From a virus: a stretch of 20,117 nt of DNA. Below, one piece after another: positions 1,586 through 19,545 of the stretch (the first letter of the stretch is position 1; every line of letters starts with the position of its first letter). The stretch lies in the IMG/VR virus record IMGVR_UViG_3300039045_000235, positions 1 through 20,117 of that record. One strand, given 5' to 3'. The position numbers were made by a program, and so were the translations under genes. The notes beneath the pieces were generated by a model. It was not told where the DNA came from, ran no database searches, and saw only the letters and a list, made by a program, of their open reading frames with translations.

Positions 1586-1893
1586 AAATTGTGGCCAAAT
1601 TATGCCACTTCTTTATTTAATACCAATGGTTCCTCCTTATTTGTTAAAAGCGCATCATATCTAGTTAAATGATATTTTGCATTTTTATCATCGTTTAGTT
1701 GCTCATACGCTAAAAGATTTCTGGTAGCATCTTCTAAACTAAACGGCTCTTGTTTCATAATTTCATAAGTGGTTGTATGTGCCCACTTAGTAATTTTAAT
1801 TATGAAATATTGATTTTCTACATTTGACATATTTACTCCTTTATTAACTTTCATAAAAATATTTTACTAAAAAATTGTGGCAAAATTATGTCA
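1586..1893. repeat. 22-bp direct repeats flanking the 1600-1830 gene
   Basis: Positions 1586-1607 and 1872-1893 match at 20 of 22 bases, around the core AATTGTGGC-AAATTATG. The left copy overlaps the last codons and stop of the small gene; the right copy lies in its leader. Within the left copy GTGGC/GCCAC makes a dyad. The pair could mark a past duplication or insertion, or be two copies of a regulatory site (see the TTGCCAC boxes at 1874-1963). Confidence 0.6.
1600..1830 (-). CDS. Small unknown protein, 76 aa
   Basis: The start is set at 1830 because AAAGGAG lies 5 nt before that ATG. A longer frame opening eight codons earlier (1854) has no site and would place the Shine-Dalgarno inside the coding sequence. 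The protein opens with a probable beta strand pair (NQYFIIKITKWAHTTTYEIM), followed by a charged helix (LEDATRNLLAYEQLNDDKN) and YHLTRYDALL. It is not recognised. It is bracketed by 22-bp direct repeats. A TTGCCA-17-TATACA promoter candidate lies upstream at 1900-1928. Confidence 0.6.
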   Translation of the reverse strand: MSNVENQYFIIKITKWAHTTTYEIMKQEPFSLEDATRNLLAYEQLNDDKNAKYHLTRYDALLTNKEEPLVLNKEVA

Positions 1894-1963
1894 TGCAATT
1901 GTATAAAAGCGCCGCACCCCTGTGGCAATGTTGTCCAGATACAAAACATATTTTTGCCACAAT
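1874..1963. repeat. 12-bp inverted repeat of TTGCCAC boxes
   Basis: ATTGTGGCAAAA (1874-1885) and TTTTGCCACAAT (1952-1963) are perfect inverted copies 66 nt apart, with a third partial copy TGTGGCAATG at 1921-1930. The boxes sit exactly between the divergent 1600-1830 gene and the structured RNA, and two of them supply plausible -35 elements (one per direction). A shared operator or a paired promoter element fits best. Confidence 0.55.
1900..1928 (-). promoter_or_regulatory. Leftward promoter candidate for the 1600-1830 gene
   Basis: Minus-strand TTGCCA (1928-1923, one mismatch to the consensus -35) is spaced 17 nt from TATACA (1905-1900). The -35 lies inside the TGTGGCAA box. The predicted leader is about 60 nt. 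Confidence 0.35.
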
Positions 1964-1981
1964 CCTATATTATTCTATATC
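1954..1981 (+). promoter_or_regulatory. Rightward promoter candidate for the structured RNA
   Basis: TTGCCA (1954-1959), spaced 16 nt from TATATC (1976-1981), predicts a start near 1988, three bases before the first helix of the RNA at 1991. The match to consensus is moderate; the fit to the beginning of the folded region is what makes it credible. Confidence 0.35.
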
Positions 1982-1987
1982 TGCATC

Positions 1988-2346
1988 TGTTTACTAGTGT
2001 CCGATGTCGTTAAACTCAAACTAGTGAGATAAGATCCAGAGTCACACCGCAACTTGTTGCCGTCTTCTCTGGATGCTGATCTCTGGTCTAATGAAGAAGG
2101 GGACGCCTGGGAAGTAGTTAGACCTGAGATCAGTTGAAACCTTTGGTGCTGTCGCAAGATAGGTAACACCCAAAGGTGCTGATCTCTGGACACTCTGGGA
2201 GCCCTGCAGGCATTAAACCAAATATTGCTTGAGTGTCCAGGGATCAGTTCAATCGATGCTATGTCCACGGCTGACAGCCTGATTGATTGACCTGGTCAAT
2301 TTATAATAAGTTCTTGCCTGGGCCTACTTGTTTAGATGGCCCAGGT
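1988..2346 (+). ncRNA. Large structured RNA, class not recognised
   Basis: This stretch folds as a chain of helices read on the plus strand. H1: 1991-1998/2020-2027. H2: 2034-2041/2067-2074, capped by 2049-2053/2056-2060 with a CUUG loop. H3: 2076-2091/2118-2133, 15 pairs and one U-U. H4: 2139-2146/2170-2177, topped by 2149-2153/2158-2162 with a GCAA loop. H5: 2178-2195/2231-2248, 18 continuous pairs counting U-G and G-U wobbles. H6: 2249-2254/2281-2286 with 2269-2272/2276-2279. H7: 2287-2291/2295-2299. H8: 2317-2324/2338-2345. The wobbles (1992-2026, 2151-2160, 2185-2241) are G-U only on this strand, which sets the orientation. Loops are GNRA and CUUG types. It lacks convincing protein coding and is less AT-rich than its surroundings. 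I did not recognise tmRNA, RNase P, group I/II intron or hammerhead core motifs. The 3' end is uncertain: H7-H8 may belong to the downstream leader. Confidence 0.75.
2302..2346 (+). promoter_or_regulatory. Perfect TATAAT followed by an 8-bp GC hairpin
   Basis: TATAAT at 2302-2307 matches the -10 consensus exactly, but the hexamer 17 nt upstream (CTGATT, 2279-2284) is a weak -35. A transcript from here would begin near 2314, just before the hairpin CCTGGGCC/GGCCCAGG (2317-2324/2338-2345), and run into the GP88-like gene with a leader of about 180 nt. The hairpin is followed by UAAAAAAAG, not a U-run, so it is unlikely to be a terminator in either direction. Confidence 0.3.
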
Positions 2347-2370: not shown

Positions 2371-2432
2371 GACAAGCAACAAGCTGCAGAGCAGCAAAAC
2401 AGAGCAACAAGCGGCAAGCAACAAGCTGCGAC
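2371..2432 (+). repeat. AAGCAACAAGC repeats, cluster 1
   Basis: Copies of (GAC)AAGCAACAAGCTGC occur at 2371-2387 and 2413-2429, with a variant GAGCAACAAGCGGC at 2402-2415. They lie in the gap between the structured RNA and the GP88-like gene. The same 11-mer recurs downstream at 3176, 3297, 3370 and 3420, always in this orientation. The rest of the gap up to 2497 shows nothing else clear. Confidence 0.7.
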
Positions 2433-2497
2433 AAAATATAAAATATTTTACACCTGGAATTCGTGTTAAGAATAGATTTAACAGAAAGCGATGAATT

Positions 2498-3100
2498 ATG
2501 AAAATAAAAGAAGCCTTAAAAATAACAGATAGTTTTACAAGAACTTCTAAGATGCCTGGACTTAGTTATAGTCTACCTGCATGGGAGTGCAAAACGGGAT
2601 GGAAGCTGGCTCAGGTTCCTGGTACTCCATGTTTTAGTTGTTATGCTAAAAAAGGAAATTATACAAGGTATCCCGCAATCAAGGCGGCGCAATACAGAAG
2701 ACTGGAAGCTATCAAGTCACCGCTATGGGTTGAAGCAATGGCGGCAAAAATAAAAAACCAAAAATGGTTTAGATGGCATGACGCGGGGGATGTCCAGAGC
2801 GTCGAGCACATGCAAAAGATTATAGAAGTTTGTAAGTTAACACCGAATACAAAACACTGGTTACCAACTCAGGAGAGGCAATTTTTGCCAGCGCCTGAGG
2901 ATGTACCAGAAAATTTAGTTATAAGATTATCAAGATCTAAAATCGACGGGCCAGCCTCCAGTGCCTGGTCTCATGAGTCGGGCGTTACAACTGACAGCAC
3001 TAAGAGAACTTGTCCCGCACCTGATCAGGCGAACAGCTGCGGAGATTGCAGGGCGTGTTGGGATAAGGAGACAAAAGTTGTAGTATATGGTAAACACTAA
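2498..3100 (+). CDS. GP88-like cysteine-rich phage protein
   Basis: Encodes 200 aa. The sequence resembles the phage 'gene product 88' family as I recall it, through WECKTGW, the CFSCYAKKGNY segment (C45, C48) and FRWHDAGDVQS. The C-terminal part carries C172 and a CGDCRAC cluster (C181, C184, C187), so at least six cysteines are arranged to bind metal, either a zinc or an iron-sulfur site. Biochemical function is unknown. It is a plus-strand gene in an otherwise mostly minus-strand region, with a base composition less AT-rich than its neighbours, and it is framed on both sides by AAGCAACAAGC repeats. The start ATG has only a weak AAAG upstream. It may be moved as a cassette with the RNA and repeats (inference). 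Confidence 0.75.
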   Translation: MKIKEALKITDSFTRTSKMPGLSYSLPAWECKTGWKLAQVPGTPCFSCYAKKGNYTRYPAIKAAQYRRLEAIKSPLWVEAMAAKIKNQKWFRWHDAGDVQSVEHMQKIIEVCKLTPNTKHWLPTQERQFLPAPEDVPENLVIRLSRSKIDGPASSAWSHESGVTTDSTKRTCPAPDQANSCGDCRACWDKETKVVVYGKH

Positions 3101-3102
3101 AA

Positions 3103-3261
3103 ATGTTTTATCATCCAAATTATTACAAAGAACTAGCTAAAGAAAAAAAGAAGCTTGAGGAAAGGCTCAAGCGTCAAGCAACAAGCGACAAGCAGGAAGG
3201 GTCAAGCAATGACAATGAGGAACAAGCAGCTGGAAAGACTGATACTAAAGATCCACAGTGA
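3103..3261 (+). CDS. Small ORF whose C-terminal half is repeat-derived
   Basis: Encodes 52 aa starting MFYHPNYYKELAKEKKKLEERL, only 2 nt after the GP88-like stop, with no strong ribosome-binding site (GGTAAACACTAAAA before it). The first 22 residues look like a genuine protein start: an aromatic N-terminus, then a lysine/glutamate helix. From residue 23 on (KRQATSDKQEG) the sequence is the translated AAGCAACAAGC repeat. It overlaps the next ORF in another frame. It could be a real small protein whose tail was replaced by the repeat, or a decaying one. Confidence 0.4.
   Translation: MFYHPNYYKELAKEKKKLEERLKRQATSDKQEGSSNDNEEQAAGKTDTKDPQ
3166..3232 (+). repeat. AAGCAACAAGC repeats, cluster 2
   Basis: A run of CAAGC-type units: GCTCAAGCGTCAAGCAACAA from 3166, then GACAAGC, GTCAAGCAATGAC and GAACAAGCAGC. 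It lies inside the overlapping 3103-3261 and 3209-3388 ORFs and is read in both frames. The GCTCAAGCGTCAAGC lead-in recurs at 3401-3415. Confidence 0.65.
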
Positions 3262-17660: not shown

Positions 17661-17689
17661 TATATATTAACGACTCAGTATTTTGTCAA
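17661..17689 (-). promoter_or_regulatory. Consensus promoter of the replication operon
   Basis: Minus-strand TTGACA (17689-17684), 17 nt, TATATA (17666-17661). It lies in the 67-nt gap before the 17079-17624 gene, giving a leader of about 30 nt. The co-directional run of overlapping genes to its left (ssDNA-binding protein, primase, helicase, polA and beyond) makes this the likely main early or replication promoter, read by host RNA polymerase. Confidence 0.8.
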
Positions 17690-17691
17690 TA

Positions 17692-18048
17692 CTAATTTTG
17701 AAAAAGATTTATCTCTATAGGAAAATAAGACGCTTGTCTCCTGTCCCATTTCAATAATTTATATTTTCCGTTAGTAATATCACTTGCAACAGAGCATACT
17801 ACTCCTATTAGAGCAGGATCTCCATATAGCAGCAGATAATCATCTGATGTAAATTCTTTTAAACTATTTCTTATCTCTCTAATTAAAGGCCCTGGTGAAA
17901 ACTGCATTTGTTTCAACCTAGAAAACATTACCTTAATTTCGCCATATTTTATTGCAGGGGACAAATCAAACCTAGGTTGTCCAACCTTTTCGGGATCTTC
18001 GTGTTCTTTAATTAAAGGAAGATCTTGAACTAAATAAACTTTTGCCAT
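17692..18048 (-). CDS. Conserved unknown phage protein, 118 aa
   Basis: I set the start at the ATG at 18048 (MAKVYLVQDLP), with AAAGG 10 nt upstream; the open frame to 18150 would add an unlikely hydrophobic start that overlaps the divergent helicase gene. The product has LVQDLPLIKEHEDPEK, then FDLSPAIKYGEIKVMFSRLK, SPGPLIREIRNSLKEFTSDD, YLLLYGDPALIGVVCSVASD and KLLKWDRRQASYFPIEINLF. The GDPALIGVxxxVAS and WDRxxxxYxPIEINL phrases are ones I recall from a family common in marine phages, with no function. It faces away from the SNF2-like gene; their promoters overlap. Confidence 0.7.
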   Translation of the reverse strand: MAKVYLVQDLPLIKEHEDPEKVGQPRFDLSPAIKYGEIKVMFSRLKQMQFSPGPLIREIRNSLKEFTSDDYLLLYGDPALIGVVCSVASDITNGKYKLLKWDRRQASYFPIEINLFQN

Positions 18049-18076
18049 TGACTTTTTACCTTTCTCTTCATATATA
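18048..18076 (+). promoter_or_regulatory. Consensus rightward promoter of the SNF2-like gene
   Basis: Plus-strand TTGACT (18048-18053), exactly 17 nt, TATATA (18071-18076); transcription would begin near 18083, 26 nt before the helicase ATG. The -35 touches the start codon of the divergent 17692-18048 gene. A weaker leftward candidate (TTTACT-16-TATATA) shares the same -10 region. Confidence 0.7.
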
Positions 18077-18108
18077 AGACGTAAGAAAGAAAAGTAAAGA
18101 TATATTTT

Positions 18109-19545
18109 ATGATAAATTATAAATTTAAAACACAGCCATATAAACATCAATTAGATGCATTAGAAACTTCATGGGACAAAGAAAACTTTGCCTATTTTAT
18201 GGAGATGGGAACTGGTAAATCAAAAGTTCTATTAGACAATGCAGCTATGCTATACGATAAAGGTTTAATAAACGGACTTATAATTATTGCACCAAAAGGT
18301 GTTTATAAAAATTGGTATGACTCTGAGATACCAACACATCTTCCTGATCACATATTTAAAAAAGTGGTTCTTTGGAAAACGTCCGATAAATCTTTAAAAC
18401 AAAAAAGTATACTACGTACTTTGTTTGAGACAGGTACAGAATTTCATATTTTAATTATGAACGTAGAGGCTTTTTCATCTGCAGATGGACCTATGTTCGC
18501 TAAAAAATTTTTATCTTCTCACAATGCTATGATAGCTATTGATGAGTCTACAACTATAAAAACACCAACTACAAAAAGAACTAAAAATATTATAGCGCTG
18601 AGAGAACTAGCTAAATACAGGAGGATCTTAACAGGTTCTCCTGTAACTAAATCACCATTAGATTTATTTAGTCAATGTGAGTTCCTTGATCCTTGGCTCC
18701 TAGGGCATTCTTCATATTGGACATTCAAAGCTCGTTATGCTGTTACTAGAAAAATACAGGCTCATGGTAGGCAAGTTGAAATTGTTGTGGGTTATAGAAA
18801 CCTTGGAGAGTTATCTGAAAAGATACAGCCATTTTCAAAAAGAGTTTTAAAAGATGACTGCTTAGATTTACCAGAAAAAACATTTTTAAAACATATTGTT
18901 GAATTAACAAAAGACCAAAAGAAAGTTTATAAACAAATGAAAGAAGAAGCTATTGCTTTTCTTGATGGTAAAGTTCTTTCTTCTGCAACCGTGATGACCC
19001 AGTTAATGAGACTTCATCAAATTACGTGTGGACATTTTACAGCTGATGATGGTGTTATAAAAAATTTACCATGTAATAGAGTTACAGAGCTTATGGACAT
19101 ATTAGATAACGTACACAACAAGGCTGTTATCTGGTCACATTACACGCATGATGTAAAAAGAATTATTGAAGAGATAAAAAATAAATACGGTGAAGATTCT
19201 GTTGTAGACTATTTTGGTGAAACTGATCAAGATCAAAGGTCAATTAATATAAAGAAATTTCAAAACGATGACAAGTGTAGATTTTTTGTAGGAACCACAC
19301 ATACTGGCGGGTATGGTATCACATTGACTGCAGCTAGTACAATGATTTATTTTTCAAATGGCTATGATTTAGAGAAAAGACAACAATCAGAAGCACGTAT
19401 TGACCGTATTGGACAAACAAAACCCATGACTTACATTGATATTATTTCAGAAAATACTGTTGATGATAGAATTGTAAAAGCTCTTCGTAGTAAAGTTAAT
19501 ATTGCTAATGAAATTATGGGTGAAGATTTGAAAGCTTGGATTTAA
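18109..19545 (+). CDS. SNF2-like superfamily 2 helicase/translocase
   Basis: Encodes 478 aa. TQPYKHQLDAL (8-18, Q-motif region), motif I EMGTGKS (32-38), Ia IIIAPKGVYKNW (58-69), motif II in variant form DEST (145-148), motif III LTGSPV (174-179), motif V GTTHTGGYGITLT and motif VI QSEARIDRIGQ (426-436). It is the SNF2 layout without the usual large insertions. Phage SNF2-like proteins are proposed to move along dsDNA in recombination, repair or packaging. The ribosome-binding site is weak (AAAGATATATTTT). It is a plus-strand gene with its own promoter, converging with the 19542-19760 gene by a 4-nt overlap. Confidence 0.92.
   Translation: MINYKFKTQPYKHQLDALETSWDKENFAYFMEMGTGKSKVLLDNAAMLYDKGLINGLIIIAPKGVYKNWYDSEIPTHLPDHIFKKVVLWKTSDKSLKQKSILRTLFETGTEFHILIMNVEAFSSADGPMFAKKFLSSHNAMIAIDESTTIKTPTTKRTKNIIALRELAKYRRILTGSPVTKSPLDLFSQCEFLDPWLLGHSSYWTFKARYAVTRKIQAHGRQVEIVVGYRNLGELSEKIQPFSKRVLKDDCLDLPEKTFLKHIVELTKDQKKVYKQMKEEAIAFLDGKVLSSATVMTQLMRLHQITCGHFTADDGVIKNLPCNRVTELMDILDNVHNKAVIWSHYTHDVKRIIEEIKNKYGEDSVVDYFGETDQDQRSINIKKFQNDDKCRFFVGTTHTGGYGITLTAASTMIYFSNGYDLEKRQQSEARIDRIGQTKPMTYIDIISENTVDDRIVKALRSKVNIANEIMGEDLKAWI

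Follow-up and report, generated by a model that had tools for sequence, protein, structure and literature searches.

Noncoding RNAs and genome mosaicism are each well known in phages. In the toxIN geometry, RNA repeats precede a protein gene and share its strand, and type III toxin-antitoxin arrays such as ToxI/ToxN, CptIN and TenpIN carry tandem RNA modules in this arrangement. In lambdoid phages, short conserved boundary sequences act as crossover points for the exchange of modules. The HTVC023P-like group includes phages of SAR11, the dominant ocean bacterium. GOLLD, ROOL and OLE are large structured RNAs of bacteria or associated with phages, and their cellular role is little known (Rfam; PMC12286853). 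The locus described here has a likeness to each of these RNA and exchange systems.

We analyzed a 20,117-nucleotide stretch of viral DNA (hereafter the window), from a phage whose DNA polymerase is 73% identical to that of HTVC027P, implying an HTVC023P-type-like phage. An earlier note on this DNA had suggested that a divergent intergenic region holds a large, undescribed structured RNA; folding, covariation and the lack of an Rfam family all support it. Beyond what was seen then, comparison of related loci indicates that the hairpins of this RNA form a family, hypervariable and exchangeable, whose clamps stay fixed.

A structured RNA between divergent operons

The plus strand of 1988-2346 is a real structured RNA (Table 1). 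Its minimum free energy (MFE) was −137.9, compared with −103.9 ± 5.2 for dinucleotide shuffles (z −6.5), and none of 100 shuffles was equally stable. The fold contains seven consecutive hairpins, several of them interrupted by internal loops, a fair match to the at least eight consecutive helices first proposed. The 15-pair H3 and 18-pair H5 of that proposal correspond to the B1 hairpin, with 17 pairs around a single U.U, and to the B2 hairpin, and the GCAA (2154-2157) and CUUG tetraloops are both there. The minus strand folds almost as well (z −5.6), so that thermodynamics by itself hardly settles the strand, which was settled by comparing loci.

No Rfam 15 covariance model matched the window at the gathering score, and in 1850-2500 nothing credible was found at E<=5, the best sub-threshold matches lying far under gathering. 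The impression that the region lacks convincing coding content also held, as no protein frame is conserved across 1988-2346 and the interior is replaced wholesale among relatives.

A promoter-like site is present immediately 5' of the RNA, as first suggested; it is absent from our consensus-scan list, but its block is conserved in four other loci (L002, L004, L005 and L006). At the level of consensus sites, the promoters are established by comparing sequences. In other loci the same slot reads TTGACAATAGGATAGTCAAGNATTATATT, and a promoter-like site was found upstream of the RNA in 35 of 116 loci, against 1.6 expected. We also observed that in the window both divergent promoters, spanning 1856-1981, carry the TTGCCACAAT box, one on each strand. 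An inverted repeat, TTGACAATAGGATAGTCAAG, is found in other loci and could act as a bidirectional promoter or operator.

Table 1. Features of the RNA locus in the window
Feature	Position	Strand	Basis
Divergent promoter-like TTGCCA-16-TATTTT, left operon	1856..1883	-	Consensus scan; TTGCCACAAT box in common with the plus-strand promoter
Promoter-like TTGCCA-16-TATATC for the RNA	1954..1981	+	Sequence; conserved block
Structured RNA	1988..2346	+	z −6.5; covariation
H1, 5' hairpin, ACUAGU arms	1991..2027	+	MFE only, without covariation evidence
A hairpin: stem and tip variable (tip CUUG here), internal loop UCAC-AC-C / C-GU-CUU fixed	2034..2074	+	
B1 hairpin: variable interior closed by the clamp CUGAUCUCUGG..CCUGAGAUCAG, which has a U.U mismatch	2076..2133	+	B-module pair counts
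H4, hairpin between B1 and B2, GCAA tetraloop	2140..2176	+	MFE; inter-B stretches themselves exchanged
B2 hairpin, 18 pairs; U-A in place of U.U	2179..2247	+	97% identical cassette in L062
Hairpin H6	2248..2290	+	MFE
Hairpin C, tip CUACUYGUUUAGAUGG	2316..2346	+	MFE; 5' of A in L107
CAAGCNN heptads in the interval from RNA to gp88	2372..2434	+	TRF period 7
gp88, PF17338; usual, not constant, neighbour	2498..3100	+	Pfam E 1e-31

Two pattern scans of IMG/VR recovered the B module in at least about 180 viral contigs that were fetched, and the RNA is also present in the cultured pelagiphage HTVC027P (MN698241, about 17,680-18,160, minus strand of the record, between gp35 and gp34) and in phage 023Pt_psg01. 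By sequence comparison, the locus is fixed between a divergent terL-side operon and the gp88/terS side. The scans demanded exact clamps, so the conservation of the B clamp is partly ascertainment; the inner stems are unaffected. Retrieval by GP88 alone gave 80 viral loci, and a CUGAUC..GAUCAG hairpin lay upstream in 46 of the 63 with at least 700 nt of upstream sequence, compared with 0 of 249 control stretches.

Searched by blastn against 50,697 phage records, the region gave nothing relevant, just chance matches of 33-36 nt. The A and B hairpins were absent by regex from HTVC033P and CRP-4, among the non-pelagic GP88 relatives fetched, and the fetched part of HTVC023P (10-24 kb) had neither gp88 nor these hairpins. 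The exact B pattern was not found in contigs of 85k prokaryote species. A relaxed pattern gave a single scaffold, an HTVC027P-like phage piece with RNA and gp88 (L313, KB911123.1) in the single-cell assembly Flavobacterium SCGC AAA160-P02, which may mean that the host range is wider or that the phage was co-sorted.

Hairpin anatomy and covariation

Two hairpin types recur. The A hairpin is defined by a near-invariant internal loop, UCACACC..CGUCUU, with variable stem and tip. The B hairpin is defined by the clamp CUGAUCCCUGG..CCUGGGAUCAG, laid out as CUGAUCCC-U-GG / CC-U-GGGAUCAG, and its inner stem and interior are variable. A lies 5' of B, mostly directly adjoining, and one to three B hairpins follow per locus, with further hairpins after them (among the matches listed). 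A D domain (GUGACC-GNRA-like-GGUAGC) was considered as a special part and rejected; the strict pattern occurs in 4 of 165 loci, and it is merely one more cassette type.

We compared 173 distinct B modules and 36 distinct A hairpins (among the matches listed). The U.U mismatch of the clamp is retained in 165 of the B modules, and positions 3-6 of the inner stem are paired in 95-100% of them, compared with 43-69% when arms are shuffled between loci. The outer stem of A behaves alike (89-100% against 47-80%). Since the interiors are too variable, no covariance model was built; gapless alignments at the clamp gave a cleaner test. In such an alignment of 50 B sequences, 95.7% of cells are paired, 145 cells carry double changes (47.3 ± 5.7 in shuffles), and the covariation score is 0.418 (0.122 ± 0.012 in shuffles). 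The shuffle control ignores relatedness, whereas structures slid along the alignment model it, and these drop to background (at most 0.10). Stem changes are also compensated within an interior family, AUAUACUAGCUUAAC. Compensatory changes thus exceed chance, the criterion for a structured RNA, and the arms covary strongly; the independent mutation of arms that would have refuted the proposal was not seen.

The covariation also fixes the plus strand, with 115 G.U cells against 3 A.C cells in B and 16 against 0 in A, bearing out the view that wobble pairs are sensible on this strand only.

Pairing that persists while interiors vary freely is what would be expected if the array merely supplied RNase III sites or transcript insulators between the divergent operons, where only duplex geometry matters and interiors drift; B stems of 17-18 pairs are indeed RNase III-sized. 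We regard such a processing or stability array as unlikely. The sequences of the clamp and the A loop are near-invariant beyond what duplex geometry needs (B clamps being partly search-selected), and identical interiors have spread horizontally, suggesting that interiors matter.

Shared blocks between phages

Comparison of loci revealed 182 island blocks, each at least 40 nt at >=93% identity, between unrelated flanks. Whole hairpins and the stretches separating them, about 50-190 nt in length, make up the shared units, and blocks at 95-100% identity link phages with GP88 proteins just 47-56% identical in amino acid sequence. Block edges fell in the clamp arm zones in 36% of cases, compared with 11% expected and a maximum of 17% among 500 nulls, implying that many, not all, exchanges end at a clamp. 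Sequence comparison shows, with little doubt, that hairpins and the stretches between them are exchanged horizontally as cassettes between phages, at or near the conserved clamps.

Individual pairs illustrate this. L055 and L167 have 116 nt in common at 100%; the B2 cassette of the window recurs in L062 between unrelated flanks; L008 has an extra cassette of roughly 180 nt. In L009 and L010, gp88 and the A hairpin are identical and B1 is unrelated, while L030 and L050 have identical RNA and gp88 genes at 89.5%. HTVC027P and L019 share a 130-nt block at 97.7% that ends at clamps, and because HTVC027P is a cultured genome, metagenome misassembly is no explanation for the exchange.

The repertoire is large. 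Among the matches listed, 171 B modules form 123 families at 85% identity (Chao1 about 300), the commonest having 7 copies in 7 left and 5 right contexts, and in the window itself B1 and B2 have different interiors. Such diversity could stem from relaxed constraint and frequent recombination instead of diversifying selection.

The enrichment of exchange edges at palindrome-like clamps also invites a reading at the DNA level, in which the hairpins work as folded single-stranded DNA or as recombination or packaging sites (attC-like, or pac near terS/terL) and not as RNA. Its position between terL and terS fits, as do hairpins that are conserved outside and variable inside with a conserved mismatch, which resemble attC. 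However, the excess of G.U over A.C cells is unexpected for duplex DNA (one folded strand is not excluded), the long compensated stems contain internal loops, and a TTGACA promoter points into the array. HTVC027P is described without lysogeny-associated genes (PMC12753301), and the genes inspected, without a dedicated search, included no integron integrase that was noticed. We therefore hold a DNA-level element to be quite improbable.

Relation to gp88 and proposed function

The neighbour on the 3' side, called GP88-like in the earlier note, was confirmed as such by Pfam. Among the matches listed, gp88 is present in 152 of 178 RNA loci, and in 18 of the remaining 26 a contig end is at most 900 nt away. 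Six of the other eight keep the RNA at the same locus with gp88 absent (L302, L213, L237, L261, L266 and L273); of the last two, L308 does have gp88, and in L099 the RNA adjoins terL.

In a cis-leader reading, the hairpins are the 5' untranslated region of gp88 and regulate its expression. This agrees with 80 of 81 oriented GP88-family matches lying 3' of the RNA and on its strand (median distance 293 nt), and with the clustering of HTVC027P gp33 and gp34, which have their own expression cluster at 6-9 hpi in published RNA-seq (PMC12753301). HTVC027P gp33 is the GP88 homologue, and the RNA lies directly upstream of these two genes. The same cluster fits a separate plus-strand unit; this is indirect, as the RNA has not itself been seen as a transcript and is not reported in the published RNA-seq (PMC12753301). 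Several features argue against a leader. A TTGAC promoter box lies 30-60 nt before gp88 in 96 of 127 loci (transcript starts are unmapped), the distance from the last B to gp88 ranges from 169 to 759 nt (10th-90th percentile), RNA and gp88 are uncoupled in L030/L050 and, in reverse, in L009/L010, and six loci keep the RNA in place without gp88. We consider a leader unlikely. Based on the separate promoter boxes and these six loci, the RNA is probably an independent ncRNA gene, although this is inferred from sequence.

In three loci with gp88 missing or displaced (L302, L213 and L232), other small proteins (MSKSYPIWIDVSGDNYKTSKSFG.. and MSTRSNIAIEDPKTKKVKVIYVHSDGYPYG.. among them) lie directly 3' of the RNA, as in a variable-cargo slot. 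CAAGCNN heptads occur on both sides of gp88, at 2372-2434 and 3168-3209 in the window. At least three heptads lie within 300 nt upstream of gp88 in 107 of 155 loci and within 900 nt downstream in 99 of 155, and the upstream array often continues into the gp88 promoter at its -35 box (CAAGCTTGACA). Perhaps the array serves protein binding.

GP88 has invariant cysteines at C31, C45 and C48 and at C172, C181, C184 and C187. Its AF2 model (pLDDT 92.5) gave a best Z of 5.6, to viperin-like/QueE radical-SAM folds, under the level that stands out, and Foldseek found no significant fold (best E 0.1). GP88 is possibly an uncharacterised Fe-S enzyme, with a modelled fold that leans weakly to radical-SAM. 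Our literature search found no paper on PF17338, and the sole paper found joining pelagiphage and noncoding RNA was about Actinomarinales.

RNA repeats upstream of a same-strand protein gene also raise a type III toxin-antitoxin-like pair, with the array as antitoxin and GP88 as toxin. This seems very improbable: the modules are not near-identical repeats, as their many families attest, GP88 matches its own Pfam family and no toxin family (a remote fold relation is not excluded), its fold leans elsewhere, and six loci have the RNA without gp88.

Our preferred reading, to which we give a probability of about 0.5, is an independent plus-strand ncRNA gene of tandem hairpins that most likely works in trans, under diversifying selection, as a binder or decoy made of multiple hairpins. 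In the array, an A hairpin with its invariant internal loop is followed by one to three clamped B hairpins, and there are further hairpins. Constant clamps and A loop together with interchangeable interiors suggest a scaffold displaying variable recognition modules; a protein may contact the constant parts, or these may serve the RNA itself as its scaffold. During infection the RNA would act in trans against a variable opponent, such as RNA-binding or RNA-cleaving factors of the host or of rival phages, and recombination between co-infecting phages would keep producing new hairpin sets. Binding or decoy function as such is inferred, at even odds at best, and neither a partner protein nor a target is known. 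Complementarity between the window RNA and the remainder of its contig shows no excess, leaving an antisense action on the phage's own mRNA unsupported.

A stronger version, a cassette-shuffled specificity system in which each exchangeable interior on the constant scaffold is matched to a different opponent (host defence, or RNA or protein of a rival phage), is doubtful for now. If it were true, hairpins traded across deep divergences would be an RNA analogue of antigenic variation. An undescribed structured RNA with traded hairpin cassettes would represent a new way for RNA to evolve, and the trading could mark an arms race at the RNA level in the sea. To our knowledge, no RNA described so far has hairpins that are traded as cassettes between genomes; what we rate as new is the combination, hairpin-level mosaicism of one structured RNA.

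Set against known systems, the array differs from each. Unlike GOLLD, ROOL and OLE, it has no Rfam match and is a chain of local hairpins of about 360 nt with swapped interiors, not one fixed large fold. Unlike type III toxin-antitoxin arrays, its hairpins are non-identical, its neighbour GP88 is not a ToxN-type RNase by Pfam, and it can lack that neighbour. Integron attC sites likewise have hairpins with conserved outer arms, variable insides and a conserved mismatch, but they flank gene cassettes, whereas the phage hairpins are contiguous, have strand-specific G.U pairs and no attC core motif that we noticed. The CsrB/CsrC sponges, with many tandem hairpins, a repeated constant motif and a variable remainder, offer a possible working analogy; their constant part is a GGA loop, while that of the phage RNA is a stem clamp with an internal loop, and its interiors move horizontally. 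Finally, the modules of lambdoid mosaicism are genes, whereas the units exchanged here are RNA hairpins and the stretches between them.
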